Shown: in pieces, positions 2,431-22,991 of the stretch
Layout of the letters: every line of letters starts with the position of its first letter
Position numbering within the stretch: position 1 is the stretch's first letter
IMG/VR virus record: IMGVR_UViG_3300035179_000023
Location: 1 to 40,722 of that record
Reading direction: 5' to 3' (one strand)
DNA from: a virus
Length of the DNA: 40,722 nt
Notes under the pieces: generated by a model
Databases searched by the model: none
What the model was told of the DNA's origin: nothing
The model's input: only the letters and a program-made list of their open reading frames with translations
Program-made: the position numbers and the translations under genes

Positions 2431-2759
2431 CCTTAATTGATTTAGTAATTGGGGGACTTCAGTGCGAAGTGGATGATATTGTAATTTATGACGACGTGTA
2501 TGGTTATTCAAAAGGGGCAGAAGGTCAATCGCAGGACATATCAGGCACAATCGATTACTTGCAAAAAGTAAAAAAGGAAATTGATACGTTGCTAAACAAA
2601 ATTGAGAACACCAAGCGTCATATGGAGGACGAATTACATGTTAGCAAGCGTGTCACCGAGATGTGGCACTCAGTGCACCATGAGTATATTTGCACTGATT
2701 GTGATACACGTCACACCACCTTCTATGGTGCACTAACCTGTAAATGCCAACTAAAATAA
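2403..2759 (+). CDS. Hypothetical phage protein with C-terminal zinc-ribbon-like motif, 118 aa
   Basis: I choose ATG 2403 (MASRRDIILTL). A GTG at 2301 would extend the protein by 34 residues but would read through the repeated leader unit. The protein has a hydrophobic first helix, a coiled-coil-like middle (YLQKVKKEIDTLLNKIENTK) and a C-terminal Cys motif CTDC...CKC with nearby His, suggesting a small zinc ribbon. Its start overlaps the 24-aa ORF at 2356, so translation may be coupled. It is followed at once by leader unit 2 and the transposase-domain gene. Function unknown. Confidence 0.6.
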   Translation: MASRRDIILTLIDLVIGGLQCEVDDIVIYDDVYGYSKGAEGQSQDISGTIDYLQKVKKEIDTLLNKIENTKRHMEDELHVSKRVTEMWHSVHHEYICTDCDTRHTTFYGALTCKCQLK

Positions 2760-2786
2760 AGAAAACCAAGAAACACGAGCGAAAGG
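2759..2786 (+). promoter_or_regulatory. Leader unit copy 2 (degenerate)
   Basis: AAGAAAACC (2759-2767), eight bases, then CGAGCGAAA (from 2776), again with 17-nt spacing and again leading into a Shine-Dalgarno (AAAGGAG) and an ATG (2795). It matches the unit consensus with one change in the first block and divergence after GAGCGA. Confidence 0.4.
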
Positions 2787-2794
2787 AGTTGAAA

Positions 2795-3598
2795 ATGAAT
2801 ACACTAGAAGCAATGACTGAAACATTATTAAGGATTGAAAAAACAAGGGTAGCATTACAGGTGCGACATACACACCTCAGTCTCGCAGGTCACGAGGACA
2901 AAATAACGGATGAAGCGATGGAACGCATCAAGGCAGTAGAGGATTGGATTAAGGGTATTGTCGCCTCCTTAATCCAAACACATCCAGCCTATCCTTGGTT
3001 TAGCAAAATCAAAGGGGTCGGCAATATAAATATAGCCAAAGTTGTAGGGCAAATAGATATTACAAAAGCTCCCACAATCTCATCACTGTGGAAATTTTGT
3101 GGGTATGCGCCTGAGAACGGGCACGCCGCCAAGCCAACAAAGGGTCAGAAGCTTCCCTATAACAGCCACCTAAAGCCACAATGCTGGGTGCTCGGCGATT
3201 GCCTTATAAAAACTGGGGGTGTTTATTACAACTTCTACATAGCCCAAAAGGAAAAGTTAGCTGTGAGATTTGCGAGCGTGGCAACTAAAGTATTGCCTAC
3301 ACCTGCTGGACAATGGTGCTGTAGCAACTGTGGACAATCATGGAGGCGCAAAATAGACATTGTGCCGTGTTGCGACAGTCAAACAATCATCAAAAAGCTG
3401 CGAGAGGAACCTATAGGGGTAATCTGGCAAGGGCACTTGCATTATATGGCTATGAGACTAATGATAAAGCGATTCCTAGCTTGCCTGTGGTTAGTATGGC
3501 GAGAGATGGAGGGTTTGCCTATAAGAAAACCTTACGCTATTGACCAGTTACGGCACGATGGGTTTGTTAACCCGTGGGAGATGATAGATAAAGAGTAA
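2795..3598 (+). CDS. IS110-type Transposase_20-domain protein lacking the RuvC-like domain
   Basis: 267 residues. ATG 2795 is chosen because AAAGGAG lies just upstream; an in-frame ATG at 2744 overlaps the previous gene. Residues 1-60 are helical. Residues 65-160 match the C-terminal Transposase_20 domain of IS110/IS1111 transposases: helix-hairpin-helix KIKGVGNINIAKVVGQI (71-87), then WKFCGYAPENG. A zinc-ribbon-like insert follows (C175-C176-x2-C179 and C192-C193). The conserved end HLHYMAMRLMIKRF...LWLVWREMEGLP is also found in phage relatives annotated as transposases. The N-terminal DEDD RuvC-like nuclease half is absent, so it is unlikely to be an active transposase; a DNA- or RNA-binding role is more likely. 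No terminal repeats of an insertion sequence surround it. Confidence 0.7.
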   Translation: MNTLEAMTETLLRIEKTRVALQVRHTHLSLAGHEDKITDEAMERIKAVEDWIKGIVASLIQTHPAYPWFSKIKGVGNINIAKVVGQIDITKAPTISSLWKFCGYAPENGHAAKPTKGQKLPYNSHLKPQCWVLGDCLIKTGGVYYNFYIAQKEKLAVRFASVATKVLPTPAGQWCCSNCGQSWRRKIDIVPCCDSQTIIKKLREEPIGVIWQGHLHYMAMRLMIKRFLACLWLVWREMEGLPIRKPYAIDQLRHDGFVNPWEMIDKE

Positions 3599-3702
3599 AG
3601 CCAGCGCTTACGAGAAAACCATTGCCAAGGAGCGAGCCATAGGGTAAGAGAAAACCACTTGTAGGGAGCGAACCAATTAAATAGAAAGGAGGTAATAATA
3701 TG
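3599..3702 (+). repeat. 100-bp leader repeat, copy A (contains leader units 3 and 4)
   Basis: This stretch, from the stop of the transposase-domain gene to the next ATG, is repeated with about three quarters identity at 4002-4104. It contains two tandem 28-nt units of the form GAGAAAACCA-N7-GAGCGARCCA, at 3612-3639 and 3648-3675 (period 36), then AATTAAATAG and an AAAGGAGG ribosome site. The conservation includes bases far from the ribosome site, so this is more than a shared Shine-Dalgarno. Confidence 0.7.
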
Positions 3703-3990
3703 CCAGAGAAGCAACGACTAGAAGGGGCGTTTGTCGTGGCGCTAGATACTATGGTGGAACGTATGCGAGCAAAGAGCCCAAACGAGGAGCTTATAAACAA
3801 TGCCAAGTATTCCTTGGATGTTTATAATGTGCTTTGTAAAGGCATCTCAGCAGACAACCACGCCAAAGCCTTGAACTTCCAAATCTTGCATACAATATTC
3901 CCAAACCCAAATGAACTCAGGGAACATCTTACAACGATAGCGCCCGAGTTGAAATTGCTTGACCAGCCAAAACAACGCAAGGCAAAGTAG
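3700..3990 (+). CDS. Hypothetical phage protein, 96 aa
   Basis: ATG 3700 follows AAAGGAGG at the end of leader repeat A. The product appears all-helical and is Lys/Glu-rich, with a basic end (QPKQRKAK). I see no motif of a known family. The gene is bracketed by the two copies of the 100-bp leader repeat, so it could have been duplicated or mobilised together with its leader, or both genes are regulated by the same factor. Confidence 0.6.
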   Translation: MPEKQRLEGAFVVALDTMVERMRAKSPNEELINNAKYSLDVYNVLCKGISADNHAKALNFQILHTIFPNPNELREHLTTIAPELKLLDQPKQRKAK

Positions 3991-4001
3991 GGCGGTAGTT
4001 T

Positions 4002-4104
4002 AGCCAGAAATTACGAGAAAACCAAGGACAAGGAGCGAGCCACGGGCAGAGAGAAAACCATCCGCAATGAGCGAACCAATTAAATAGGAAGGAGGAACAA
4101 CATG
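4002..4104 (+). repeat. 100-bp leader repeat, copy B (contains leader units 5 and 6)
   Basis: Second copy of the element at 3599-3702. Units at 4015-4042 and 4051-4078 have the same internal spacing (17 nt from GAGAAAACC to the GAGCG block) and the same 36-nt period. It ends with AATTAAATAG and GGAAGGAGG just before ATG 4102. Confidence 0.7.
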
Positions 4105-4311
4105 GCAAACCTAACATGGCTACAAGCGCAAGTTGACAGGGATGAGTGGGACAAACTAAACAAGCAAAGGTTAGCCCTCAAACTAAAGTGGGCGGACATA
4201 CTGCTGCCCGCTGCCAAGGCTTACCTCGCCACGCTTGTAATAGTTAGCCCGCCTGAACCGGCAAACGTTGCGTCAGACAAACCCCAAGCACCAAAGCACT
4301 CCAGCAAGTGA
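4102..4311 (+). CDS. Small hypothetical phage protein, 69 aa
   Basis: ATG 4102 follows GGAAGGAGG in leader repeat B. The product starts MANLTWLQAQVDRDEWDKLN, has a helical middle rich in Lys, Leu and Ala, and ends in a Pro/Ser/Lys tail. It does not resemble the 96-aa product of the other repeat-led gene, so only the leaders are duplicated, not the genes. No family recognised. Confidence 0.55.
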   Translation: MANLTWLQAQVDRDEWDKLNKQRLALKLKWADILLPAAKAYLATLVIVSPPEPANVASDKPQAPKHSSK

Positions 4312-4422
4312 ACACGCAAGGCGCAACTGGTTACGGACATGGGTGTTGGTCATGAGGAAACTGAGGTATCGCCAGAAAGCACTGGCTAGGCGACGTTTCC
4401 GAGTTGAGACAAGAAAACGTCT

Positions 4423-4532
4423 GGCAGCCCGCCCATCAGGGGAAATCGGGAGTAGGTCTTTTCAACCTATCACCTCCCCCTCCCGTGAGGCGCTCCCGAC
4501 TGTAATCGGGCATAGTGGTGGGCGGGTGTGCC
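4423..4532 (+). ncRNA. Structured non-coding RNA candidate 1
   Basis: The 275-bp gap between genes holds nested inverted repeats. The outer stem pairs GGCA plus CCCGCCCATCA (4423-4438) with TGGTGGGCGGG plus TGCC (4516-4532): 15 pairs with one G-U and a small bulge. Inside are a hairpin TAGGT/ACCTA (4453-4457 with 4465-4469), a CGGGAG/CTCCCG pairing (4447-4452 with 4480-4485), and a hairpin CCCGA/TCGGG (4495-4499 with 4506-4510). The whole forms a 110-nt multi-stem fold ending 54 bases before the next gene. It may be a small RNA or a 5' leader element. Confidence 0.5.
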
Positions 4533-4542
4533 AAACTTGCCT

Positions 4543-4570
4543 TGCAAAAAACTTGGCTCTATGCTAGACT
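4543..4570 (+). promoter_or_regulatory. Candidate promoter TTGCAA-N17-TAGACT
   Basis: TTGCAA (4543-4548) and TAGACT (4565-4570) have ideal 17-bp spacing. The 12-mer TGCTAGACTAAA here recurs at 22977-22988 in the same arrangement before another gene. The -10 is so close to the ribosome site that the transcript would start near the Shine-Dalgarno, a reason for caution. Confidence 0.4.
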
Positions 4571-4586
4571 AAAGGAGGCAACATAA

Positions 4587-4781
4587 ATGGCACGCAAAAT
4601 GTCAAACAAAGGCGCACCGCCAAGCAACGAACAGATGTCGCATATAATCAAGGCTCGCCCTGATATTTTAGTGGGCAAACCAATTATGTGTTCCAAGTGC
4701 AAGCAAGGCGGTGGCACACTGGTCAGGATTGACGACCATTACGAACACTCGCATTGTGCCCTTTATGGCAAAAAGGATTGA
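4587..4781 (+). CDS. Small zinc-ribbon-like protein, 64 aa
   Basis: ATG 4587 follows AAAGGAGG. The product has a basic N-terminus and the motif CSKCKQGGGT...HYEHSHC, which could form one zinc site (C-x2-C plus His/Cys). Such small Cys-rich proteins are common in the early regions of phages and usually have no known function. It is followed closely by a second Cys-rich gene, and with the 7052 product they form a set of small metal-binding early proteins. Confidence 0.6.
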   Translation: MARKMSNKGAPPSNEQMSHIIKARPDILVGKPIMCSKCKQGGGTLVRIDDHYEHSHCALYGKKD

Positions 4782-4784
4782 AAG

Positions 4785-4997
4785 ATGGCACTATTTATTT
4801 GCATAAAATGTGGATACTGTGCCCCCTGTGTTATTATAGCTGCATTGCATCAGGCAACGTGGCACTCACATCGTGATGTCTGTATATCGGAAGACCTGCG
4901 TGGGCTTGATGATGAAGATGTTGCACGTTGTTTGCCCTGTTTATTAGACAATACTATACCGTTAGAAGATTATTATCGTATGAGACATGAGAGGTAA
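4785..4997 (+). CDS. Small Cys-rich protein, 70 aa
   Basis: It starts 4 bases after the previous stop (ATG 4785, weak ribosome site GAAAG), so it is probably coupled. The motif CIKCGYCAPC near the N-terminus is followed by HSHRDVC and a later CLPC, giving two possible metal sites. The C-terminal half is acidic and helical. The nuclease gene follows directly and starts 2 bases beyond the stop. No family assigned. Confidence 0.55.
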   Translation: MALFICIKCGYCAPCVIIAALHQATWHSHRDVCISEDLRGLDDEDVARCLPCLLDNTIPLEDYYRMRHER

Positions 4998-4998
4998 G

Positions 4999-5727
4999 AT
5001 GCCAAAAACAACAGACAGCGCCACGCTCGCCCACAAGAGATACAAAAACAGCCAAGGACAGATAGTACCCGGTGTTACGACTATCATAAGCCTGCTGAAC
5101 AAACCTGCACTCATACATTGGGCATGGAATTTGGGGATGGAAGGCACAGACTACCGCAAGGTTACCGACAAGGCTGCCAACATAGGCACAATTACTCATT
5201 ACCTTGTAGAATGTTACCTCAAAGGTACTGAGCCAAGCCTTGATAATTTTACAACCATCAGCATCCACGCTGCGCAGATTGCTTTCAGCAACTTCAAGCA
5301 ATGGTGGGAACAACAGCAACTCAAAGTGGTAGCAAGCGAGTGTAGCCTTGTAAGCGAGGTGATGCAATGCGGGGGCACTTTGGATTGTGTGGCTGCGAAG
5401 TATTTTAATCTTGCCGACCTCCGACCCGGCGAGTTGTGGCTGGTGGATATCAAGACCAGCAAAGACATCTACGATGAAATGCGCTATCAATTGGCGGCAT
5501 ACTGGGCGATATGGAACGAGAACTATCCCGACCAGCCACTTACCAATGCACACATTATTCAGTTGAGCAAAGAAGACGGGCGGTTGGTGCATCACAGCTT
5601 TGATAGGTTGTTTACCGAGTTAGAGATTTTCAGGCACTTACGCATAGTCTATGGGCTACGCAAGGACAAAGACCCAAAGCGCAACCTTGACCGTGTGTTT
5701 AAGAAGCTGACATTGGATAGACTATGA
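4999..5727 (+). CDS. PD-(D/E)XK nuclease, RecB/Cas4-like
   Basis: 242 residues from ATG 4999 (GAGAGGTAAG upstream). The RecB-family core is visible: helical N-terminal half with HWAWNLGMEGTDYRK, then CGGTLDCV (the GxxD metal-binding aspartate), then LWLVDIKTSK (the D-x-K catalytic strand), then YQLAAYW (the conserved Q-x3-Y helix). Phage proteins of this type act as DNA exonucleases in recombination or DNA processing. It overlaps the next gene by 4 bases (ATGA). Length and all key residues are normal, so it is probably active. Confidence 0.8.
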   Translation: MPKTTDSATLAHKRYKNSQGQIVPGVTTIISLLNKPALIHWAWNLGMEGTDYRKVTDKAANIGTITHYLVECYLKGTEPSLDNFTTISIHAAQIAFSNFKQWWEQQQLKVVASECSLVSEVMQCGGTLDCVAAKYFNLADLRPGELWLVDIKTSKDIYDEMRYQLAAYWAIWNENYPDQPLTNAHIIQLSKEDGRLVHHSFDRLFTELEIFRHLRIVYGLRKDKDPKRNLDRVFKKLTLDRL

Positions 5728-6272
5728 CAAAGGCTAAAGTAAGACGAACAATTATATGCGATAACTGCCATGCTGAGTTTATACCAAAAACAGGGCACAA
5801 TCCTGAAAGGCGCTTTTGCTCTAAAAAATGTAGAGAAACTTACTGGATGATAGTTAGAAGAGAAACACCGCCACCTAAGCGTAATTGCGCATATTGTGGT
5901 AAAGAATTCCAACCCAAACGAAAAGGTAGTGTTTGTTGTAGTGGACTCTGCTTTGTAAAATATAATCACGACATAAAAAACTTTGGGGGTAGCCGCAGAA
6001 CAGCAATTGGATATGATAGTGGCACATGCTGGATATGCAGAAAGAGCGGTTTGAAAGGACGCCAGTTACATGTTCATCACATGCTCGGTCGAGAGACGGC
6101 AGGAGATATTATGCTAGTGGTCTTATGCAGAGGATGCCATTTATTAGCAGAAGAACTTGCTCGGAGGAAAATGTTGAAAGATGCAGATAAAATAGCAGAT
6201 TTGCTAACAATAGCACGATTCAGACAAGGATTGCCTGACGCCCGCACTGTGATAATTTACGAGGAACAATGA
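5724..6272 (+). CDS. HNH-like endonuclease with zinc-finger N-terminus
   Basis: 182 residues. Two tandem treble-clef-like zinc modules open the protein (CDNC...FCSKKC, residues about 12-36, and CAYCGKEF...CCSGLC, about 55-77). They are followed by an HNH-like core: CWICRKSGLKGRQLHVHHMLGR and LVVLCRGCH. The HH pair and the final CxxCH fit the metal-binding His and zinc ligands of HNH proteins. The ATGA overlap with the nuclease gene indicates coupling. Free-standing HNH proteins in phages cut or nick DNA; a homing role cannot be excluded, though no intron or intein is seen nearby. Confidence 0.7.
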   Translation: MTKAKVRRTIICDNCHAEFIPKTGHNPERRFCSKKCRETYWMIVRRETPPPKRNCAYCGKEFQPKRKGSVCCSGLCFVKYNHDIKNFGGSRRTAIGYDSGTCWICRKSGLKGRQLHVHHMLGRETAGDIMLVVLCRGCHLLAEELARRKMLKDADKIADLLTIARFRQGLPDARTVIIYEEQ

Positions 6273-6415
6273 ACAAAGAGGATAAGCAAAGGCTTATAAG
6301 CGCCTGCGAGAACAAAGGTTGGAGGATATCAAAACTAAAAGGGAAAGGAGGTAACCGACATGGCAAAGCCAGACAAGGTAGCAAGAGAAGCGGTGGAGAT
6401 AAAGCGTCTGACTGA
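6269..6415 (+). CDS. Possible small protein overlapping its neighbours, 48 aa
   Basis: ATG 6269 overlaps the HNH stop (ATGA) and follows GAGGAA. The first 30 residues (MNKEDKQRLISACENKGWRI and on) look like a genuine basic small protein. The last part runs through the ribosome site and into the start of the next gene in another frame. It could be a short gene or a relic whose 3' end was replaced. Marked uncertain. Confidence 0.3.
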   Translation: MNKEDKQRLISACENKGWRISKLKGKGGNRHGKARQGSKRSGGDKASD

Positions 6416-6722
6416 TTATGTAGCCGTTGGCAAAGGCGTCAACCTTGAAGGCGAGCGGATGGAACTGGAGGAGATACTTGGCAAAGATATTAAGCTAACC
6501 GACTTCGTATTTTTGACCAGCACAAAATATGAAAAGGAAAGCGGCAAAAGTGAGTTTGCCGTTATCCAGTTTGAACTTGAAGGCACGCTCTACACGACCA
6601 GTACCGGTGGCAGGGTTGTCGTGGATGCCCTAAAGCAGATGCCCAAAAATTACCTGCCCGTTACAATCAAGATTATCAAAGCCAAAAGCAAGGAAGGGAG
6701 ACGCTATTATTCAATAGAATAG
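6360..6722 (+). CDS. Possible single-stranded-DNA-binding-type protein, 120 aa
   Basis: ATG 6360 follows AAAGGAGGT with good spacing. The product is beta-rich, with alternating strands such as FAVIQFELEGTLYTTSTGG and LPVTIKIIKAKSKEGRRYYSIE, and a helical start. This pattern and its place among nuclease and polymerase genes suggest an OB-fold ssDNA-binding protein, but there is no acidic C-terminal tail of the classic SSB type and I recognise no exact family. If correct, it would coat single strands for the fused replication protein downstream. Confidence 0.45.
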   Translation: MAKPDKVAREAVEIKRLTDYVAVGKGVNLEGERMELEEILGKDIKLTDFVFLTSTKYEKESGKSEFAVIQFELEGTLYTTSTGGRVVVDALKQMPKNYLPVTIKIIKAKSKEGRRYYSIE

Positions 6723-6726
6723 AGTT

Positions 6727-6944
6727 GCTTGCTGGTGTCCCGGGGCGACAAGGCTGGGAGTTAAATGGACGAGATAGGGTATCGGTGCCGATTACGCCGT
6801 CAAACAGCCAGCAAGCCTGCCAGCCACGTAAGAGCAGTTTGGGCGGGTCGTGTAGGGGAAGTTGATAAGTTTTACCTCCCTACTCCGCCCCACTGGCTGG
6901 CAGGAAGCCTGAGCCGAGAGATGACATCAGAATTTGGCTCAGGC
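6727..6944 (+). ncRNA. Structured non-coding RNA candidate 2 (three consecutive long hairpins)
   Basis: The 330-bp gap holds three strong stems in a row. Stem 1 pairs GCTTGCTGG (6727-6735) with CCAGCAAGC (6808-6816), enclosing a small ATCGG/CCGAT hairpin. Stem 2 pairs CCTGCCAGCCA (6816-6826) with TGGCTGGCAGG (6894-6904), with inner stems GGGCGG/CCGCCC (6841-6846 with 6885-6890) and GTAGGG/CCCTAC (6852-6857 with 6878-6883). Stem 3 pairs GCCTGAGCC (6907-6915) with GGCTCAGGC (6936-6944). Three perfect 9-11 bp inverted repeats abutting each other are unlikely by chance. The remainder to 7051 is a spacer with a UUCG-type mini-hairpin before the next ribosome site. Confidence 0.6.
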
Positions 6945-7051
6945 AGGGTGAGGGTGTGAGCTATTATAGTTAGCAGTGGATAGCCTTAATGGTGATAGTT
7001 GCTAAAGACCACCAGCCCTTGCCCTTCCCTTCGGGAGTAAAGGAGGAGAGA

Positions 7052-7249
7052 ATGGAAGCTAAAAAAGATTATAAAATTGAATTTTGTATGTGTGGGCATC
7101 CAGAGTTAATTCCGACACAATGGAACCAACCTAAACCAGAACCCTGCCAAACAATAGGCAGTTGTCCAACCCATGATTATACCTGTCCTATTTGTGGCTT
7201 TGGCGTTGGTTGTGTCCCTCCATGTAATTGCGAGGAAAGGAGATTTTAG
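7052..7249 (+). CDS. Cys-rich zinc-binding small protein, 65 aa
   Basis: ATG 7052 (MEAKKDYKIEF) follows AAAGGAGG; an in-frame upstream start at 6989 has no ribosome site. The product contains eight Cys arranged as CMCGH...C...C...CPICGFGVGC...CNC, enough for two zinc sites. The following gene also begins with MEAK, perhaps by partial duplication of the start region. Function unknown; placement just before the replication gene suggests an early role. Confidence 0.6.
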   Translation: MEAKKDYKIEFCMCGHPELIPTQWNQPKPEPCQTIGSCPTHDYTCPICGFGVGCVPPCNCEERRF

Positions 7250-7414
7250 GTGGAAGCTAAAGAGAAAATCAAGTTGCTTTCAGGGCACCTATCAGAAATA
7301 GATATTACCACAATTAACAAGGCTCTTGAGGAAGCTAAGCAAGAGGGGATGAAGGGGGACAAGCTACGAAAGGACGCTCCCTTCAGGGAAAGGATTGAAT
7401 TTGTCACAGATTGA
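7250..7414 (+). CDS. Small helical protein overlapping the replication gene, 54 aa
   Basis: GTG 7250 follows the previous stop directly and has AAAGGAG upstream. The frame ends at TGA 7412-7414, inside the start of the large replication gene. The product is charged and helical, starts MEAKEKIKLLSGHLSEIDIT and contains a Lys/Glu-rich middle. The overlap suggests coupling with translation of the replication protein. No family recognised. Confidence 0.5.
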   Translation: MEAKEKIKLLSGHLSEIDITTINKALEEAKQEGMKGDKLRKDAPFRERIEFVTD

Positions 7415-10400
7415 TACTGCAAATTGGCAGCGCATGGATTACGTTCATTACTATACTAACGTATGGCATGCGCCTGTTATACCCATAGCTGAAAGCAAAA
7501 AGGCGCTGGTTAAATGGGCGCCCTACCAATCACGCCTGCCAACCGATGACGAACTGAAGGCGTGGTTTGTTGATGGGCAACCATGGGGTCTGGCTATTGT
7601 GTGTGGCGCCGTGGCGGGCAACTTGTTTAGCATTGATATAGATACCGATGCGCTATACAAGGAACTGTTCCAAGCCGGCGCATTCCCGCAGGGCGCCTGC
7701 ATCTATAAGTCGATGCGTGGCTACCACGTCATTATGCGTGCCGACATCATCCCATTTTGTATCAAGGAACACCACCCGTTGCTGGCGCCCGACTTTTGGG
7801 AGTTGGGCATAAGTGGCGACCGCACGCTGAGCAATGTGCCCAATACGCCCAAACGGGAATGGATAGAATTGTACGACGACCCCGTGTTGGTGCCCTATGA
7901 GGCATGGCTCAAAAAATACCTAAACTACAGCCGTGAGATGGAGGAGCATTACGGCGCAGAAATCAAGATGAAGTGCCCCTACCACGATGACGAACAAGCC
8001 AGCCTGTTTATCAACCAAGAAAAGGGCGTCTTTCATTGTTTTGGTTGTAATGCCAAGGGCACACTAGCACAGCTACTCACCGATAGTAGACAACAAAACT
8101 TCAAATTACCCGATGACGTTTGGGCACGAATAAGACAAAATCTATCGGTGCCCGCCATACGCCTGAGCGACAAGGTGGAGGAGGAGCATATTGAGGTTAT
8201 CATAGACCAACTACTTGAGGGAGGTGAAAATGCCACCGTCATCATTTCAGGCGACTTGGGCGTAGGCAAGACAACACTGGGTTTGTCCATAGCCATCCCG
8301 CTAGGGCAAGGCAAAATGGTACTCGGCAAACTGCGTGCGCCCAAAGCAAAGCGGGTTGCTTATATCAACTTTGAACAACGTGGTATGAGCATCCATCAAC
8401 AAGCCAAGGCAATGACGACAACATTGGGCGAGACGGAGAACCTCATCATACTGGATGGACGCAAGGTCAGGCTATGGGACAAGGATAGCATGGAACGTCT
8501 GTGGAATACCTTAATCATAGAAAAAGCTGAAGTGCTTATAATGGACAGCATCCAATCACTTGTTAGGGACTACAACAGCAAGGAGGAGGCGGATGAGGTA
8601 AGGGAGTTCGCCAGCAAAGTGGTGGACGAACTCCATTGCGCCGTTATCTTCTTGCATCACATAGCCAGCGGCGAGGATGCCGGCGCCGGTGCAGGACGTG
8701 CCAAAGGCACACTGGGCAAAATGCTCGCCGCCTATTGCGCCACCAAGCTACTCTATACAGGCTTGAGCGATAAGATAGAGGACAAATACTACGGCAGGGT
8801 GCAAGGGACAACAAGGGCTTGGGATATAGTGGATTGGTGCGTCGCCTATGAGGGCATCACCAAAACGGCAAACATCATTGATTGGCAGGACTTGGACAAG
8901 GAGACCAAAAAAGGGCTCGGTCGCCCATCTACCATAGACCTGCTTGACCAAGGTCTTATATTAGCAAGGCGCATGGGTAGAACAAAAAGCCAATGTGCTG
9001 ATGATATGGACATTGATATACGCTCCATACAGTACTATTTGGGGGGGGAACAATACCCGAGCGCCGAGAGCGAACAAAAGATAAACGATTGGATAACACA
9101 ACTAAAAAGCATCATATTAGACGATGCGCATCTTGATCAAAACAAAGATGAACAGGCACAAAACCGATGTGTCTCCGATGCGTCACCGATGCGTCCCGAT
9201 GCGCCTCATGAGGGCGACCAGCTACAGAGTGAGGAAAGACCCATGCCTAAGCCCTCTCCACTCAGGGGAGGGGGCGGGGGGGTATCTCTCATAGTATCTA
9301 AGATTAAAAATATAGAGGGGACAGAATTACACAAAGCGGGAATAGCCAAGAGTGTGAGTGAGGGGGGCGCACCCAACTGCGCCAAATGCACACTCAAAGG
9401 GTGTGTGCGGGTGGAAGGCTACGGCGAGGCAGCCAGCGGTATTATGTATGTTGGCGAGGCACCGGGCGAGGAGGAGGAAAAACAGGGCATGCCGTTTGTT
9501 GGCAGGGCGGGCAAGTTTCTGGACGAGTTGCTCGCCAGTATAGGCTTGGACAGGGGACAGGGCTATACGACCAATGTGTGCCTTTGTCGCCCGCCGGTAA
9601 AGAGCAAAAAGCAGACTGACCCCACGCCCACCAATGTCAAGTGCTGCAAACCTCGTCTTTTGGCTGACATAGCTCGCATACGCCCACATACCATTTACTT
9701 GCTTGGCGATACAGCGGTTAGCGCCTTGCTGCCAGCCTATTCTCTGGCTCGCTATCATGGCAAGAAGGTCGTTGTGGAGGGCATTACATATATTATTATG
9801 TATCACCCATCAGCGGGCTTACATAACCCTTACTATCGCCATATTCTTCTGAGTGATGTTGAACAATTGCCCAAATACCCGCCTGTTAGCGAGATAGATG
9901 GTAACTATAGCATTGCTGAGTTGAGTCCTGAGGACTTCAAGGAGGATTTGGTAACCATTGATACTGAAACTGTTGGTTTGTATGGCAGATTACTGGGTGG
10001 CGCTATCTGTTTGCAGCCAGCCTCAGCAGCCTATTATGTCGGCGATAAATTGACGGCATGCCTCAAGGATTGCCCAGAATGGCAGCGGTTCCTATTCCAT
10101 AACGCCAAGTATGACCTGCATATACTTAAGGCAAACGGCTATGATTGGCATGGTAAGGGGCTGGATGATACACAGTTATTGGCTTACTGTCTAGGCTACG
10201 AAAACACAGGCTTGAAAGTGCTTGAAACACAGGAACTAAACCTTGACCATCCTGATTATGAAGATATCAAGGGCACACTGGATAGTCTGCCTACCAAACA
10301 ACTGGCACGCTATTGCTGCCAAGATGCCGATGCCACACGCAGGTTGTGGGATTACTTGGTAAGTGTTGCCGATGAACGTGAAATGCGGCTTTACAACGAC

Positions 10401-11597
10401 ATTGAAAAGCCACTGTTGCCTGTGCTGGTTGATATGGAGTGCAAAGGCGTGCGGGTAGATTTGGATTATGTTCGGGAATGGGCAGCTAAACTTGAAGTGC
10501 AGCGCACCGACCTTGAAAAACAACTGGGCGATGAGTATGGACTTACGCCCAAACAGCTAAATAGCCCTAAACAACTTGGTGATTGGCTGCATGAACAGGG
10601 TGTGGATTTGCCAAAGACGGATAAGTCGGAACAATATGCTACAGGCAAGGAGATATTGGCGGGGCTCAAGGACAAGCACCCGGCTATACTAACCTTGATA
10701 AATTATCGGCAAACGGGCAAGCTGTTGATTACCTATGCGCAAGCCTATTTAAGACTAGCCGACAACAGCGGTTACTTGCATAGCCGCTATCATCAGGGCA
10801 AGGTGGTTACGGGACGATTATCATCATACGACCCCAATTTACAAAACTTGCCTCATACCTTTGATGCCCGGCGACCTTTCATTGCCAGCGAGGGCAACAA
10901 ACTGGTTAGTATGGACTTCAGTCAAATTGACACACGGGCAATGGCAGTGATAACCGGTAACAAGGCGTTGATGGAGGCATACCAAAACAGGGATATGGAT
11001 ATTCATAACTGGTTGGCTGATAAACTGTTTGGTGACCATGAGGACAAGCACCGCTATGTGGTCAAATCAGCCAATTATCTGTCTATGTATGGCGGGTCAG
11101 CCCGTGGTTTGCATACCTATCTGAATGCGCCTATGGGTCAGTTTGATGTGTGGGAGATGGGCGTACCGCCTAGCCTCAAGGAATGCGAGGAGATTATTGA
11201 GGCTTACTATACTCAACTGGCAGGGTTGAGAGAGTGGCAACAAGGCATTAAAAAGTGGGTACGGGAGCACTACTACGTAGAGGACTACTATGGCAGACGG
11301 CGTTATATTTACAAGGTTGCCAGCAGCAAACGTGAGATACGTGCCGAGGGCGAACGTGAGGCAATCAATTTTCCCATTGCCGGCACCGCCAGCGAGGTGT
11401 TTAAGATGGCAACGTCAAGGGCTGGCGTTATCTGGACGCCCGCTATCAACATACATGATGAGTTGGTGTTTGACTTGCCGGTGGTGCAACTGGATGAGCT
11501 TATACCAAAATTGCAAGGCGCCATGCAAGGCATTGCATTTCCTGTGCCTCTAGTGGTAAAATACAAGGTAGGAGATAATTTAGGAGAGTTGCTATGA
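7395..11597 (+). CDS. Fused replication protein: Prim-Pol, CHC2 zinc finger, RecA-like ATPase, UDG family 4, 3'-5' exonuclease, family-A DNA polymerase
   Basis: 1400 residues; start TTG 7395 or, better spaced from AAAGGA, TTG 7401. Domains in order: archaeo-eukaryotic Prim-Pol (about 20-170; D81-x-D83 and H111); DnaG-type CHC2 zinc finger (C194, H197, C215, C218); RepA/RecA-like ATPase (265-460; Walker A GDLGVGKTT 286-294, Walker B VLIMDS 380-385); an HTH-like stretch (508-550) and disordered linker (555-655); family-4 uracil-DNA glycosylase (660-825; GEAPG 687-691, Fe-S cysteines C662, C665, C731, C751, motif HPS 804-806); exonuclease (845-990; D856-x-E858, N903, D907, Y973-x3-D977); polymerase (1000-1400; motif A D1174, motif B K1224/Y1228, motif C H1354-D1355-E1356). 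All catalytic sets are intact. It would prime, unwind or translocate, remove uracil and copy DNA from one chain. Tyr at 1228 (Phe in E. coli Pol I) predicts good ddNTP use, as in T7. Confidence 0.9.
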   Translation: MNLSQIDTANWQRMDYVHYYTNVWHAPVIPIAESKKALVKWAPYQSRLPTDDELKAWFVDGQPWGLAIVCGAVAGNLFSIDIDTDALYKELFQAGAFPQGACIYKSMRGYHVIMRADIIPFCIKEHHPLLAPDFWELGISGDRTLSNVPNTPKREWIELYDDPVLVPYEAWLKKYLNYSREMEEHYGAEIKMKCPYHDDEQASLFINQEKGVFHCFGCNAKGTLAQLLTDSRQQNFKLPDDVWARIRQNLSVPAIRLSDKVEEEHIEVIIDQLLEGGENATVIISGDLGVGKTTLGLSIAIPLGQGKMVLGKLRAPKAKRVAYINFEQRGMSIHQQAKAMTTTLGETENLIILDGRKVRLWDKDSMERLWNTLIIEKAEVLIMDSIQSLVRDYNSKEEADEVREFASKVVDELHCAVIFLHHIASGEDAGAGAGRAKGTLGKMLAAYCATKLLYTGLSDKIEDKYYGRVQGTTRAWDIVDWCVAYEGITKTANIIDWQDLDKETKKGLGRPSTIDLLDQGLILARRMGRTKSQCADDMDIDIRSIQYYLGGEQYPSAESEQKINDWITQLKSIILDDAHLDQNKDEQAQNRCVSDASPMRPDAPHEGDQLQSEERPMPKPSPLRGGGGGVSLIVSKIKNIEGTELHKAGIAKSVSEGGAPNCAKCTLKGCVRVEGYGEAASGIMYVGEAPGEEEEKQGMPFVGRAGKFLDELLASIGLDRGQGYTTNVCLCRPPVKSKKQTDPTPTNVKCCKPRLLADIARIRPHTIYLLGDTAVSALLPAYSLARYHGKKVVVEGITYIIMYHPSAGLHNPYYRHILLSDVEQLPKYPPVSEIDGNYSIAELSPEDFKEDLVTIDTETVGLYGRLLGGAICLQPASAAYYVGDKLTACLKDCPEWQRFLFHNAKYDLHILKANGYDWHGKGLDDTQLLAYCLGYENTGLKVLETQELNLDHPDYEDIKGTLDSLPTKQLARYCCQDADATRRLWDYLVSVADEREMRLYNDIEKPLLPVLVDMECKGVRVDLDYVREWAAKLEVQRTDLEKQLGDEYGLTPKQLNSPKQLGDWLHEQGVDLPKTDKSEQYATGKEILAGLKDKHPAILTLINYRQTGKLLITYAQAYLRLADNSGYLHSRYHQGKVVTGRLSSYDPNLQNLPHTFDARRPFIASEGNKLVSMDFSQIDTRAMAVITGNKALMEAYQNRDMDIHNWLADKLFGDHEDKHRYVVKSANYLSMYGGSARGLHTYLNAPMGQFDVWEMGVPPSLKECEEIIEAYYTQLAGLREWQQGIKKWVREHYYVEDYYGRRRYIYKVASSKREIRAEGEREAINFPIAGTASEVFKMATSRAGVIWTPAINIHDELVFDLPVVQLDELIPKLQGAMQGIAFPVPLVVKYKVGDNLGELL

Positions 11598-13452: not shown

Positions 13453-13621
13453 GCAAGAGATAGTTTGCGCCGACTGTGTACCGTGGATGCGTGGACAACC
13501 GCCCAATAGCATTGACGCCATTGTGACCGACCCACCTTACGGAATTGATAGCAATGAGGACTATTGCAAGATAGCCAAAGAGCGTCTTGCCGGTTGGAGG
13601 ATTGATAATGACCAACACTGA
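13445..13621 (+). pseudogene. Gutted DNA methyltransferase (motif IV DPPY retained, centre missing)
   Basis: ATG 13445 overlaps the previous stop by 8 bases. The 58-residue frame begins MNKQEIVCADCVPWMRGQPP, continues SIDAIVTDPPYGI (motif IV of N6-adenine/N4-cytosine methyltransferases), then jumps to NEDYCKIAKERLAG, the typical C-terminal helix of the same family. The 150-250 residues that normally lie between, and the FxGxG SAM-binding motif, are missing. The join is in frame, so an internal deletion left a short readable frame. It cannot be catalytic by itself. It ends just after the start of the PLP-enzyme gene. Confidence 0.75.
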
Positions 13622-14699
13622 GAGTGAACTTCAACCCTGCGAACGGTGTGGCAAAGTAAGCCCGCCCGCTGAAGATGAGAAGTATGACGATGTTTATCTG
13701 CCCGTCCGTGAGGGCAGTGTGGCAATGCGGTTTGGGTATGCGCAGGAGCGCTTATGTGGGCGTTGCGCCTGCGCCCAGTTTATTGGCAGCTATTGGAATG
13801 GCACACCCGACCGCACACGTACGCCCATCGAACAATACCTTGTATTTGATAGAGCGGTGTATGTCAAGCGGGACGACCTTTGGAACAAGGGCAAGTATGG
13901 CGGCGGTAACGCCAAGTTGCGAGGCGCCGAGGTTAGGCTGCGAGGCTTGAAGGAGAGCGGCATAACCCATGTGGCGGTAATGGATGCCAAAACAAGCAGG
14001 GCGGGATGGGGCATTGCCGAGCTGTGCAGGGATTTGGGGATGAAGTGTACGGATTTCTACGGGCGGTACAAAGGTGAGCTTACCACAACGCCCTATGACC
14101 GCAACCAGTTTGAGGCTGTCAGGGAGGAGGATATGTGGCAGTTGCCGCTCTTTCAAGCCAGAGCCCATGCAGCGGGCGCCCAAATAATTGCCATGCCCGC
14201 CAGCCGTGTTTACCCCATGTATTACAAAGCCAGAAAATACTGTCAAGAGAACAACATCTATTTGATGCCTATGGGCTTGCAGCTAACCGAGGCAATACTC
14301 AGCACTGCCGGTGAAGCCTCAGCGTTGTCCGATAGGTTGCGATGCGGGACGATTGTTTGCTGTGTGGCTACAGGCACTATGTTTGCCGGTTTGCTTTTGG
14401 GCTTGAGGGATACTGCTAGGATTATTGGTGTTTACATTGGAATGACAAGCGGTGAAATCAAAGGGAGGGTGGGAAGCGACCCCGAGGCGATAGTGAGGCG
14501 CCGCATAAAATCGCTGTTGCCCGATGGGTTCGAACCACCGCCGTTTGAAATTGCGCTGGCGGATAGGGAATACTATGCGGAGGACAATTACCCGTGCCCG
14601 TTCCCGTGCGATAAATGGTATGACCGCAAGGCGTGGCGGTGGATGGTCGAACACCTGCCTTATTTGGACAATTTGGTGCTGCTTTGGAATATAGGATGA
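13608..14699 (+). CDS. PLP-dependent enzyme, fold type II (ACC-deaminase/tryptophan-synthase-beta-like)
   Basis: 363 residues. ATG 13608 is chosen because GGAGG lies 7 bases upstream; an in-frame TTG at 13587 is less likely. The N-terminus has a zinc-ribbon-like part (C11-x2-C14, C50-x2-C53). Then comes the fold-II signature TPIEQYLVFDRAVYVKRDDL and YGGGNAKLRGAE, where K103 corresponds to the Schiff-base lysine of the GGNK-x-R motif. ATGTMFAGLLLGL (254-266) matches the phosphate-binding loop, and the end VLLWNIG resembles the family's C-terminus. It may act on an amino acid or on a modified base. A PLP enzyme is unusual in a phage; its neighbours are a methyltransferase remnant and a nucleotide kinase. 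The substrate is unknown. Confidence 0.7.
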   Translation: MTNTESELQPCERCGKVSPPAEDEKYDDVYLPVREGSVAMRFGYAQERLCGRCACAQFIGSYWNGTPDRTRTPIEQYLVFDRAVYVKRDDLWNKGKYGGGNAKLRGAEVRLRGLKESGITHVAVMDAKTSRAGWGIAELCRDLGMKCTDFYGRYKGELTTTPYDRNQFEAVREEDMWQLPLFQARAHAAGAQIIAMPASRVYPMYYKARKYCQENNIYLMPMGLQLTEAILSTAGEASALSDRLRCGTIVCCVATGTMFAGLLLGLRDTARIIGVYIGMTSGEIKGRVGSDPEAIVRRRIKSLLPDGFEPPPFEIALADREYYAEDNYPCPFPCDKWYDRKAWRWMVEHLPYLDNLVLLWNIG

Positions 14700-15226
14700 G
14701 ATACATAGGACTATCAGGCAAAATGGCAAGCGGCAAGAGTTTGGTGGCGACCTATTTGGTTGAACATCACGGCTTTACCGAACTTTGCTTTGCCAAAAAG
14801 ATGAAGGAGGTCTGCGCCGAGCTGTTCCCCCACGCCAAGTATGATAAGGATAGATGGTTGTTGATACAGGTGGGCGAGCTGCTGAGGGAGCTGGATGCCA
14901 ATGTTTGGATTAGGTTTGTGCTCCAAGACATCAAGCCTGATGCAAACATTGTAATTAGCGATGTGCGGTTGCCCAAGGAATACTGGGCGTTGCGCCGGTT
15001 AAACTTTGCCATGGTGAGGATGTATGTCAGCCGTCAATCACAACTAGCCTATATTGCCAAGGCTTACCCCGATATGCCCTTGGTGTTGCTGGATGATTAT
15101 ACCGAGACGGCGCTGGACAATTACCCTTTTGATTTTTGCATTGATAATGACCTTGCTGTGCCTTTGGAGGAGGTTTACAAACAGGTGGATATTATGTTGG
15201 AGGAAATCAAAATTGGAAGATATTAA
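14696..15226 (+). CDS. P-loop nucleotide kinase (dNMP-kinase-like)
   Basis: 176 residues from ATG 14696, overlapping the PLP gene's stop (ATGA). The Walker A motif GLSGKMASGKS is at residues 5-15, followed by helix VATYLVEHHGF. VISDVRLPKEY is placed like the second conserved Asp region of T4 gp1-type deoxynucleoside monophosphate kinases. Such kinases supply dNTPs or, in some phages, phosphorylate modified bases. Coupling with the PLP enzyme suggests a shared pathway. It overlaps the start of the terminase small-subunit gene. Confidence 0.7.
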   Translation: MRYIGLSGKMASGKSLVATYLVEHHGFTELCFAKKMKEVCAELFPHAKYDKDRWLLIQVGELLRELDANVWIRFVLQDIKPDANIVISDVRLPKEYWALRRLNFAMVRMYVSRQSQLAYIAKAYPDMPLVLLDDYTETALDNYPFDFCIDNDLAVPLEEVYKQVDIMLEEIKIGRY

Positions 15227-17281: not shown

Positions 17282-19888
17282 ATGGCATTCAAATTGTCTG
17301 ACTGGATTAGGTTTGGGCGCACCAAGCCGCCCGCCGTTGAACTTGGTGCCACAGGCACCGTCTTCTTCGCAGGGAGATTGTCGGAGGAGGAATATCTTGT
17401 CGACCTTCGGGGCGAGAAGGGGATAAAAGTCTACGACAGGATGCGCAGAAGCGATGGGCAGGTCAAGGCTGCGCTGTTGGCGTGCGAGTTACCCTTGCGT
17501 TCTGCTCATTGGGATATTGAGGCAGCCAGCGATAACAAGCAAGACCAAGTTATCGCTGATGCCGTTCGTGATAATTTGTTCAACAATATGACTATAACCT
17601 TTGATGACTTCCTCCGCCATATTCTGCTTATGCTCCCCTTTGGCTTTAGCGTTTTTGAGAAGGTGTGGGAGCTGAGAGAAGGTGTATGGTGTTGGCGCAA
17701 GTTTGCACCCCGGTTGCCCAAGACCATAGCCGAGTGGAAGTTTGATGATGAAGGTGGGCTGGCGGGCGTCAAGCAGCGCACATGGAAGGGCAACCTCTAT
17801 CAAGACATTGATATACCTGTTGATAAGTTGCTCGTGTTTACCAACAGCCGTGAAGGGAGTAACTATGAGGGTATCAGCTTGCTGCGAGCGGCTTACAAGC
17901 ATTGGTATTACAAAGACCAGCTTTATCGCATTGACGGCATTGCCGCTGAGCGCCACGGTGTGGGTTTGGCGGTGTTCCATTATCCATCAGCCACACCAAA
18001 GGAAGACAAGGATGCCGTTAGTGCTATAGGCGAACGCTTGCACGCCCACGAGCGGGCATACATAGCCCTGCCAGAGGAGATTAAGTTTGACCTGCAGGGC
18101 GTTGCCGGGCAGTTGCATGATATCAAGGGGTCGATTGAGCACCACGATATTATGATTGTGCGCAGCATACTTGCACAATTTATCAACCTTGGCGCCAGCG
18201 ATGTGGGGAGTTTTGCCCTGTCGCAAGACCAATCGGGCTTCTTCCTTATGGCGCTGCGGGCAATAGGCAAGAATATCTGCGATACATTCAACCGCCATGC
18301 TATCCAACAGCTTGTTGATTATAATTGGGAGGTTGTTAAATATCCCCAACTGACGGTCAGCGGGCTCGAATTTTATGATATTGCCAAATACAGTGTGGCG
18401 ATTAGCGCCTTGGTTAACAGTGGGCTTATAATGCCCGACCGCAACATTGAGGCTGAATTGAGGCGGCAACTGCGGTTGCCCGCCATCCGTGCGCCTGAAC
18501 AGGCGGTGGGTGGTAGGGAGATAAGATTAGCCGAATGGCGACCTTGGCGGCACCCCCGTGGCATGGAACAGCATTTAGCCTTGAATGACATCAAGCAAAA
18601 GTTTGATAGTGCCGAGGAGGAGTTTGTCAAGGCGTGCAAAAAAGTGCAGGACAAGCAAATTAGTGTACTGGTTAAACAGGTTGCCGATGCTATTGAGGCG
18701 GGCGATATAGATAAAGTGACAACTATAGGTGTGCCCTATGTTGAGAAACTGGCTGATGCTGTGGAGGAGGTGCTGATTGACCTGTATCAGTTTGGCAGGC
18801 AACAGGTGATGCAGGAGGCTGGACGTCAGCGGGGCAAGGTAACAGCACAAGAGCCCATTCTAGAGGGCGGGAAGTTAGCAGCCGGGGCGTTTATTAAAAC
18901 TAGGGCACGAGCGACGGCTGCCGTGCTCGGCTCAAAGTTGCGTTCAAGCATGGCGTGGGAGGCGCTAGGGCAGATAAGGCAGGGTGTGGTTGACCGTGCC
19001 GCATTGACATCAGTGCTGACCAGCCTATCAGATAGAGAATTGCAGGCTACCGCCAAGTTTAGTGTTACCGAGTCGTTTGACTTGGGCAGGGAGCAGCAAG
19101 CCAAGGAGATGTCGGATGAAATTGATAGGGTAATCTACAGTGCCATACTGGATGACAATACCTGTGGAGAGTGTATGGAGGTGGATGGTAAGGAGTACAA
19201 ATTCCCCAGCGCCGAATGGGATGAGGTTACGCCACCGTACAAAAAGTGTAGCGGGCACGAACGTTGCCGGTGCGTTGGCGTTTATGTGTTCAAGGGTGAG
19301 CATCCAGCGTTACCTATAGCGCCACCCAAGCCGCCGGTAGCGCCACTTGTGCCGCCGAGAGCAGAAGCGCCAATAGAGACTTTTGGCACAATCAGTAATA
19401 CAACCAAGGCTAGGGTGAATGAAGTTTACAGCCAACTGCCGCCCAAATCACAAGAAGGTATCAAGAAGATTGAGCTTTACAAGGAAAGGGGACGTACGGA
19501 TACCTTTGACCACGGCGAGTTTACCGTAGGTGCAGATTTTAATCCTCAAAATGGTGCGGTGCGTATCTTTGATGTTAACAAAAATAGCATGACCGATATA
19601 CAGTGGACACTCGGGCACGAGGCAGGGCATGCTGCTGAGCTCAGCGTATCACCGAAAAGTATGGATGCTTTTGTTAACGCAGTTGAGAGAGAAGGAACAA
19701 TAACCAATTATGCAAGGAATTGGTATGCCTCAAATATCGACCGAGGGATTGAGGAGAACTTTGCTGAGTGGCACAAGGCGTTTGTTATGCAGGTAGAGGG
19801 CAATATGGATGTTCTTAGAGCAAGTTATCCAGACAGTTACAAGGTATTCAACAGAATATGGATTGATGAATTGGGAGGCAAAGCATGA
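17282..19888 (+). CDS. Portal protein (DUF935/Mu gp29-like) fused to MuF head protein and a C-terminal zinc metallopeptidase
   Basis: 868 residues. The first about 430 form a DUF935 portal (FDDFLRHILLMLPFGFSVFEKVWE, SNYEGISLLRAAYKHWYYKD). A helical region (450-600) leads into a MuF domain with SVTESFDLGREQQAK and the cysteine set C628-x2-C631 and C656...C663/C665 (CSGHERCRC). A Pro-rich linker (about 676-700) precedes a final 160-residue domain with H779-E780-A-G-H783 and downstream EENFAEW (824-830), the pattern of a zinc metallopeptidase with a third Glu ligand. MuF proteins often carry variable C-terminal toxin or enzyme domains that enter the cell with the DNA. Here the whole is joined to the portal. 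Both ends have overlaps with neighbours, so the fusion is probably real. Confidence 0.88.
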   Translation: MAFKLSDWIRFGRTKPPAVELGATGTVFFAGRLSEEEYLVDLRGEKGIKVYDRMRRSDGQVKAALLACELPLRSAHWDIEAASDNKQDQVIADAVRDNLFNNMTITFDDFLRHILLMLPFGFSVFEKVWELREGVWCWRKFAPRLPKTIAEWKFDDEGGLAGVKQRTWKGNLYQDIDIPVDKLLVFTNSREGSNYEGISLLRAAYKHWYYKDQLYRIDGIAAERHGVGLAVFHYPSATPKEDKDAVSAIGERLHAHERAYIALPEEIKFDLQGVAGQLHDIKGSIEHHDIMIVRSILAQFINLGASDVGSFALSQDQSGFFLMALRAIGKNICDTFNRHAIQQLVDYNWEVVKYPQLTVSGLEFYDIAKYSVAISALVNSGLIMPDRNIEAELRRQLRLPAIRAPEQAVGGREIRLAEWRPWRHPRGMEQHLALNDIKQKFDSAEEEFVKACKKVQDKQISVLVKQVADAIEAGDIDKVTTIGVPYVEKLADAVEEVLIDLYQFGRQQVMQEAGRQRGKVTAQEPILEGGKLAAGAFIKTRARATAAVLGSKLRSSMAWEALGQIRQGVVDRAALTSVLTSLSDRELQATAKFSVTESFDLGREQQAKEMSDEIDRVIYSAILDDNTCGECMEVDGKEYKFPSAEWDEVTPPYKKCSGHERCRCVGVYVFKGEHPALPIAPPKPPVAPLVPPRAEAPIETFGTISNTTKARVNEVYSQLPPKSQEGIKKIELYKERGRTDTFDHGEFTVGADFNPQNGAVRIFDVNKNSMTDIQWTLGHEAGHAAELSVSPKSMDAFVNAVEREGTITNYARNWYASNIDRGIEENFAEWHKAFVMQVEGNMDVLRASYPDSYKVFNRIWIDELGGKA

Positions 19889-20055
19889 CAACAAAGCGTA
19901 TTGGGCTTGATACCAAGGGTAATGTGGTAGAAAAGTTGGAAGATGCGGTAGTGGTAATGGAGTCTGAACTTGATGCCAAAGGCAAGTTAGTGCGAGAGAC
20001 AACCTACCGTGCCGAAGGTAAGGAACTACCACCAATGACGGTCATAACTAAATAA
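19885..20055 (+). CDS. Small hypothetical protein after the portal-MuF gene, 56 aa
   Basis: ATG 19885 overlaps the previous stop (ATGA), with GGAGG upstream. The product is beta-like with alternating charged residues (MTTKRIGLDTKGNVVEKLED) and repeated D-x-KGK/DTKGN turns. If the metallopeptidase domain is toxic, an immunity role for this coupled small gene is conceivable, but nothing shows it. Otherwise it is a minor head component. Confidence 0.5.
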   Translation: MTTKRIGLDTKGNVVEKLEDAVVVMESELDAKGKLVRETTYRAEGKELPPMTVITK

Positions 20056-20078
20056 ACAAAAGGAAAAGGAGGACAACA

Positions 20079-20615
20079 ATGGAGAGGCAAGACATTGCAA
20101 ACTGGAAGTGTCACTACAAGCTGGAGAAGCGGGATGGTGATATAGACGCCTGCAAGACCCCGGAGGAACGGTTAGCCTTCTTAGAAAAAATTAAGCCTTA
20201 CGAGGTCATAGAGCATGAAGGCAATTGTATGCTCAATACTGGCATTGATGAGATGTGGGATTTGATAACGGGGGTGTACAATGCCACCATCGCCAACCGG
20301 TGCTTCGACAACACCAATGCCAAGATAGGCGTGGGCGACTCGGCTACTGGTGCTGCACCTACCCAGACAGACCTTCAGGCAGCGACCAACAAGACCTACA
20401 AGGGCATGGAAACTGGCTACCCGACATCTACCACCCAAAAGGCAACCTTCAAGGCTAGTTTTGGTGCAGCCGAGGCAAACTATGTTTGGAACGAATGGGT
20501 AGTCAAATCAACCAGTGGCACGCCGACCAACATCTGCCTAAATAGGAAGGTTGACAGTTTGGGCACAAAGACGACGGGCACGTGGACGTTGGAAGTTAGC
20601 ATAACGTTGAGCTAA
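20079..20615 (+). CDS. Virion structural protein, fibre-like fold, 178 aa
   Basis: ATG 20079 follows AAAGGAGG. The helical start is followed by the phage-structural pattern AKIGVGDSATGAAPTQTDLQ, then FKASFGAAEANYVWNEW and a C-terminal WTLEVSITLS strand. The arrangement IG-x-G...TD-L...EW resembles that of the protein at 34851 in the tail-fibre region, so the two are probably related in fold. Position in the head module is unusual. It may be a head decoration or fibre. Confidence 0.6.
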   Translation: MERQDIANWKCHYKLEKRDGDIDACKTPEERLAFLEKIKPYEVIEHEGNCMLNTGIDEMWDLITGVYNATIANRCFDNTNAKIGVGDSATGAAPTQTDLQAATNKTYKGMETGYPTSTTQKATFKASFGAAEANYVWNEWVVKSTSGTPTNICLNRKVDSLGTKTTGTWTLEVSITLS

Positions 20616-20627
20616 TAGGAGGTTGTT

Positions 20628-21416: not shown

Positions 21417-21418
21417 TA

Positions 21419-22636: not shown

Positions 22637-22639
22637 CTT

Positions 22640-22939
22640 ATGAGGCAATATAATAGGGGGGATACCGTTTACATCAAATATAGGCACGAGACCTATGACC
22701 CTGCGACGGACACTTGGTCACTAGCCAACCCAGACACCGACTACCCCAAGATAACCATAATTGATAGCAAGGGTGTCGCCCAACTTGACGGTGCAGCAAT
22801 GAATCCAGTAGCCACTGGCAAGTTTGACAAGCAATATCAAAGCCTCTCTACTGCCGATACTGGACGATGGCACGGGTTCGTGGAGACTTGCAATGGCGGC
22901 TACAAGGACACAACGGATTTTGAATTTGAGGTGCGCTAG
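22640..22939 (+). CDS. Small Ig-like beta-sandwich virion protein, 99 aa
   Basis: ATG 22640 is 3 bases after the previous stop. The sequence shows the pattern of a short Ig-like fold: VYIKYRHETYD, then PKITIIDSKGVAQL, then TADTGRWHGFVETCNGGYKDTTDFEFEVR. Phage Ig-like domains decorate capsids or fibres and bind carbohydrate. It closes the four-gene accessory virion cluster. Confidence 0.5.
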   Translation: MRQYNRGDTVYIKYRHETYDPATDTWSLANPDTDYPKITIIDSKGVAQLDGAAMNPVATGKFDKQYQSLSTADTGRWHGFVETCNGGYKDTTDFEFEVR

Positions 22940-22956
22940 GACGTGCCAAACCTTGC

Positions 22957-22985
22957 TTGCATTTCAATTAAGGAGGTGCTAGACT
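22957..22985 (+). promoter_or_regulatory. Candidate promoter TTGCAT-N17-TAGACT
   Basis: TTGCAT (22957-22962) and TAGACT (22980-22985) are 17 bp apart. GTGCCAAAC and TGCTAGACTAAA recur in the same order upstream of the gene at 4587. If used, transcription would begin near ATG 22992, giving an almost leaderless mRNA. Alternatively the shared bases are a protein- or RNA-binding motif. Confidence 0.4.
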
Positions 22986-22991
22986 AAATAT

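Follow-up and report, generated by a model that had tools for sequence, protein, structure and literature searches.

One open reading frame of the window (the whole 40,722-nucleotide stretch of viral DNA analyzed here) probably encodes a single-chain replicase. Our preferred reading, to which we assign a probability of roughly three in four, is that gene fusion in a tailed phage produced a modular protein for priming, unwinding, and copying DNA, and that the linker between its two halves is a former intergenic region that possibly still functions as an origin or operator. The frame extends from 7395 to 11597 and its translation is free of internal stops, as a preliminary description of this DNA had stated. 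Within it, the fused replicase gene (7401..11597, + strand; 1398 codons) probably starts at a TTG at 7401 in preference to 7395; AGGGAAAGGA is located 6 nt before this codon, and the ATG of the homologue in the related viral contig L102 aligns with it. The domains follow one another in the order AEP Prim-Pol, CHC2 zinc finger, RepA/DnaB-like ATPase, Xre-type HTH, linker, family-4 uracil-DNA glycosylase (UDG), 3′–5′ exonuclease, and family-A DNA polymerase (PolA). All Pfam matches exceed the curated cut-offs and fall at residues 23–115 (Prim-Pol), 186–237 (CHC2), 262–424 (AAA_25), 675–812 (UDG), 850–989 (exonuclease), and 1025–1397 (DNA_pol_A). Together with the sequence motifs, these matches bear out the domain list of the preliminary description, which had overlooked the HTH and the unusual linker. 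Codon usage supports the fused frame in both halves, with a signal that collapses at approximately 9135–9375. Of the ORFs scanned in the window, none besides this one was recognized as a primase, helicase, or polymerase.

The N-terminal half opens with the AEP Prim-Pol domain (7422..7946, +), which matches PF09250 at 24.2 bits against a cut-off of 22.8 and carries a DxD motif (SIDIDT, residues 77–82) and a KSMRGYH motif (residues 103–109). These first two motifs are present, but the third Prim-Pol carboxylate was not located in an alignment with relatives; the earlier claim that every catalytic motif is in place therefore holds for the listed motifs of all domains and stops short of this carboxylate. 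In a structural model of the first 593 residues (pLDDT averaging 68, near 90 for the Prim-Pol region and low in places), residues 8–182 match pRN1 ORF904 (1rni) with a Z of 16.1 and an rmsd of 2.9 over 170 residues. The Prim-Pol is followed by a CHC2/DnaG-type zinc finger (7950..8105, +; CPYH...CFGC; PF01807, 7e-11) and by a RepA/DnaB-like ATPase of RecA fold, a putative hexameric replicative helicase (8193..8858, +; PF13481, 2e-15), with Walker A (GDLGVGKTT) and Walker B (LIMDS) motifs. The hexameric RSF1010 helicase RepA is matched both by the ATPase profile (1g8y, E 1e-5) and by the modeled ATPase (1olo; Z 16.0, rmsd 3.6, 189 residues). We place an Xre/lambda-repressor-like HTH after the ATPase (8931..9125, +; approximately residues 511–575) because the profile of this region matches structures of lambda-repressor-like HTH proteins (e.g. 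8tac, E 4e-6); the model shows helices at residues 511–589. In three relatives (L105, L107, and L111), the primase-helicase gene lacks a CHC2 zinc finger, and another residue stands in for the histidine of the second Prim-Pol motif (RKGGGYGMLLRS type). Members of the clade may therefore not all use the same mechanism in their primase half.

The C-terminal half begins with the family-4 UDG domain (9378..9830, +; PF03167, 3e-28), which matches the T. thermophilus type-4 UDG 1ui0 with an E of 4e-25. It continues with the 3′–5′ exonuclease (9942..10361, +; DTET, HNAKYDL, and YCCQD; PF01612, 4e-9) and the family-A polymerase (10467..11585, +; PF00476, 4e-76). Motifs A, B, and C of the polymerase read SMDFSQIDTRAM, RYVVKSANYLSMYG, and IHDEL, and a C-terminal model matches Bst Pol I (3ht3) with a TM of 0.75 by target. 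The order UDG, exonuclease, PolA is that of phrog_17, a common phage family whose profile covers residues 676–1398 at 1.3e-105. The same order is found in the phrog_17 polymerases SPO1 gp31, PaBG gp205, and Serbin, and has been described for PaBG gp205 (PMC7412058). These polymerases are stand-alone proteins, mostly of 760–970 aa, without a primase-helicase half; in 80 viral loci UDG-exonuclease-PolA is a separate ORF, mostly of this size, in whose frame nothing matched the N-terminal half. Because the corresponding half is fused to a primase-helicase in the window and in L102, and does not stand alone, we regard the chain as a variant rather than a plain member of phrog_17.

The state of the UDG motifs differs between fused and unfused phages. 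The window retains intact GEAPGE and YHPSA motifs as well as all four 4Fe-4S cysteines (660, 663, 729, and 749), and both motifs are likewise intact in L102. In the phages with split genes they are degenerate (FNAPST/YDPKR in L101, and also in L105, L106, L107, and L111), and the motif of the SPO1 group is degenerate as well (QENP). Given this difference, uracil excision is a plausible activity of the fused chains, and within the clade it is doubtful for their split counterparts. The degenerate motifs of the split phages and the SPO1 group would fit a UDG domain that lacks glycosylase activity and serves instead as a structural or DNA-binding module, as is apparently the case in several related phage polymerases; for the present chain we consider this rather unlikely, as the window and L102 keep GEAPGE, YHPSA, and the Fe-S cysteines.

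Relatives of the phage were gathered through its terminase, and two fused examples were found, the window and L102. The latter is an independent viral contig with a terminase 71% identical to that of the window, and it carries the same fused frame without a stop, 65% identical across residues 5–1400. It supports the reality of the single chain, for which the preliminary description had suggested a search for full-length homologues in viral metagenomes. In L101 (terminase 67% identical), a 613-aa Prim-Pol/zinc finger/ATPase/HTH protein is followed by two small ORFs and then by a 755-aa UDG-Pol protein. In L105, L107, and L111 (terminase about 54% identical), the two halves are separate adjacent genes, and in L107 the stop of the first overlaps the start of the second as TGATG. 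Since these four members of the same terminase clade have separate genes, the two neighbors appear to have fused recently; the ancestral order was most likely primase-helicase followed by UDG-Pol, which became one gene in the lineage of the window and L102. On this sequence evidence, the gene fusion is real and recently formed.

The preliminary description had named separately encoded homologues, combined with an assembly error at the junction, as grounds for giving up the single chain. Separate genes do occur in L101, L105, L107, and L111, but the open junction is no assembly error, since an error in one contig is excluded by the sharing of the fused frame between two diverged contigs. One could still suppose that the join between two genes is an artefact of sequencing or assembly (an indel in one of the G tracts or among the 11-bp repeats), or that an intergenic region is open by chance: relatives carry two genes, the linker has no coding signal, it contains a G7 tract and 11-bp repeats, a G8 tract immediately precedes it, and a Shine-Dalgarno sequence and ATG lie at 9243. 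This is very improbable in the face of the same unbroken frame in the independent contig L102, where the linker indels are in frame. An artefact caused by an indel in the G8 tract is ruled out, as frame 0 is coding both before the tract and, clearly, after it, and the chance of an open linker frame is about 0.015 for the window and 0.04 for L102.

The linker at the fusion site (9117..9365, +; approximately residues 573–655, 80–83 codons) shows no amino-acid constraint and appears to be a former intergenic region. Differences between the window and L102 amount to 0.47/0.40/0.42 by codon position, with no third-position excess, compared with 0.16/0.13/0.51 in the ATPase and 0.29/0.21/0.55 in the polymerase; every domain has a third-position excess. 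Because its codon positions differ nearly evenly, the linker drifts like non-coding DNA. The two linker indels between these phages (42 and 36 nt) are both multiples of 3 and keep the frame. No terminator-like site was found at the junction on the + strand. A possible internal ATG for a separate UDG-Pol is present at 9243..9245 (+), preceded by GAGGA at a 7-nt spacing; L102 does not share it but has other candidates for an internal start. With its good Shine-Dalgarno sequence this ATG could yield free UDG-Pol, and the full chain may therefore not be the sole product.

These features bear on whether the product is a polyprotein, that is, one chain from which cleavage within the linker (or internal initiation alongside it) gives a primase-helicase and a UDG-polymerase. 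Plasmodium Prex (Pfprex) offers a model, being a processed polyprotein according to a passage of PMC7689252. A linker of variable length and without amino-acid constraint, very low pLDDT where the modeled linker starts, and possible internal starts in both fused phages would agree with such processing. Against it, the internal starts lie at different positions in the two phages, read-through seems to be maintained, and neither a protease site nor a protease gene was identified. We therefore entertain a polyprotein tentatively, as something less than probable.

The linker also contains repeats. An iteron-like array, CCGATGCGTC (9164..9205, +), has a period of 11 and 3.8 copies (TRF score 55, or 68 as a 22-bp period), and none of 300 shuffles matched its quality. 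In the alignment, three CCGATRC boxes are in register between the window and L102. Further downstream lie a GC-rich hairpin and G tracts (9252..9280, +), with a G tract present in L102 too, and an AT-rich block of 19 nt, AGTATCTAAGATTAAAAAT (9293..9311, +), which reads VSKIKN and is identical in L102. This block may mark where the polymerase gene once started, or it may be an unwinding element; its identity proves little alone, because the conserved domains hold identical runs that are equally long or longer. Between the genes of the unfused L101, six copies of AAAAGTGGCAT are followed by AT-rich DNA and form the strongest tandem array of that stretch. Repeat arrays are thus found at the junction in all three of the nearest phages (the window, L102, and L101).

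Because the CCGAT repeats are kept in L102, and L101 has other repeats and AT-rich DNA, the linker may be an iteron-type phage origin or an HTH operator trapped in the fused gene; the origin reading draws on repeats and AT-rich DNA in these three related phages. Xre-type HTH domains commonly bind operators, which would suit an operator for autoregulation by the HTH, and L105, L107, and L111 have no tandem array at the junction. That the repeats are such an operator, or a chance minisatellite, and not an origin has in our judgment somewhat less than an even chance. The repeats and AT-rich DNA of L101 and the conserved boxes of L102 resemble iteron origins, and, since a period of 11 nt does not fit the codon frame, selection on the repeats, if any, acts at the DNA level. 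We also considered phase variation, in which the copy number of the 11-bp repeat would shift the frame, and rejected it, as no second allele was seen. The most far-reaching version of the origin reading is a self-contained one-gene replicon, whose chain would recognize the origin in its own linker, unwind, prime, copy, proofread, and remove uracil, the origin being kept as DNA and its translation free to drift; we regard this as doubtful.

In the fused replicase that we favor, a single chain would have arisen once the primase-helicase gene, which lay upstream, lost its stop codon and the UDG-exonuclease-PolA gene downstream of it lost its start codon. Judging from the protein families and folds, the HTH would anchor the protein on repeats in its own gene, the RepA/DnaB-like ATPase would unwind the DNA, and the zinc finger and Prim-Pol would lay primers. 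PolA with its proofreading exonuclease would extend these primers, the UDG domain would excise uracil from the strand at the fork, and the linker possibly still serves as replication origin or operator. The activities of all domains are predictions from sequence, and from them we infer that the chain would couple these steps physically, as had been proposed. A RepA-like ring would carry six polymerases, and full chains may therefore mix with shorter UDG-Pol proteins from internal starts or proteolysis.

The all-in-one chain had been put forward as undescribed. This overstated its novelty, as one-chain replicases are published and UDG-exonuclease-PolA is standard for phrog_17, but UDG, AEP, a hexameric-type helicase, and PolA in one chain, or such a chain with a possible origin-bearing linker, were not found in the literature and collections searched. 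In the 'four-in-one replicase' of lactococcal phage 1706, GP55, a helicase, an AEP primase, a 3′–5′ exonuclease, and a family-B polymerase share a chain of 1317 aa, and the protein, mainly as a dimer, synthesizes DNA de novo (PMC12205980). At the level of architecture it is alike, a phage chain of similar size with primase, helicase, 3′–5′ exonuclease, and polymerase domains. However, GP55 has a family-B polymerase, places its SF3 helicase first, and is described with no mention of a UDG, whereas the window chain has a family-A polymerase (PF00476) and a RepA-like ATPase; since the protein families differ, the resemblance is convergent.

According to passages of PMC7689252, the 1606-aa PolA polyprotein of TOSV comprises a DUF927 primase/helicase region, an exonuclease, and PolA, and is fused or split among relatives. 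TOSV/Pyrovirus 3173 and Prex, as presented there, resemble our chain in that a primase/helicase region precedes the exonuclease and family-A polymerase, all in one chain in some relatives and with a separate ORF in others. They differ in that the N-terminal region of TOSV is of DUF927 type, and the same passages make no mention of UDG or AEP Prim-Pol for them (PMC7689252). The window chain has no Pfam match to DUF927, which sets it apart from the TOSV/Prex type, and its polymerase matches Prex (2e-28) more weakly than Taq (1e-51). The AEP fold is common to the chain and to pRN1 ORF904 and the NrS-1 Prim-Pol (Z 16). ORF904 joins a Prim-Pol to a helicase-type ATPase; neither it nor the NrS-1 protein is known to carry a fused PolA or UDG, and the helicase class differs. 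RSF1010 RepA has the ATPase fold in common with the chain (Z 16), but is free-standing where the fold here is a module. As far as its domains tell, the window chain works like known one-chain replicases and belongs to none of their families. It adds a second, apparently independent route to single-chain phage replicases, through a family-A polymerase, a RepA-like helicase, and a UDG. Because this clade contains fused as well as unfused phages, natural pairs make it possible to test directly what fusion does to priming, unwinding, and synthesis and, if the linker is an origin, one gene would encode both a replicase and its start site.

Searches of larger collections returned few relatives. None of the records among 50,697 phages covered 80% of the chain, and a DNA-level search of the phage collection gave no match. 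Prim-Pol was present in 9 of 50 other UDG-Pol records, always as a separate ORF of 613–772 aa. Viral contigs scanned with the whole chain gave short CHC2 matches only, and with either half none; in profile scans of viral contigs, L101 and L102 were the only clear relatives, and L121 was a distant polymerase match. A scan of genome contigs with the fused pair yielded no relative, and one with the terminase a single distant relative (L122), too weak for naming a host. Among the UDG-Pol frames, that of L100 (4446–7733) is extended at its N terminus by about 185 residues that have no Pfam match. L032 carries two tandem UDG-exonuclease-PolA genes (2566–4815 and 4944–7268), each matching nearly the whole query, and the upstream copy contains UDG, exonuclease, and PolA; L033, L034, and L049 are arranged likewise. 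Two adjacent replicative polymerases are unusual.

Upstream of the replicase, the window encodes a putative single-strand DNA-binding protein (6360..6722, +; phrog_6243). A homologue lies upstream of the replicase in L102, L107, and L111, and a similar ORF is found in the L101 contig. A PLP-dependent enzyme (13587–14699; phrog_7093, PALP) adjoins a deoxynucleoside monophosphate kinase (14633–15226), an order that is kept in L101 and L102, and the two are possibly parts of a modified-base pathway. Between the portal and protease genes, the window has about 3.7 kb of extra DNA (19313–22991) relative to L101 and L102, where the gap is 40–53 nt; this DNA lengthens the portal ORF by 191 codons and contains ORFs that have no Pfam match. 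The strongest tandem array of the window is a perfect 22-bp repeat, CGGCATAGCGGTTTTCTAACAC, in 2.7 copies at 38344–38402. Near the left end, a tyrosine integrase (1285–2286) and an IS110-like transposase (2744–3598) suggest a temperate phage.
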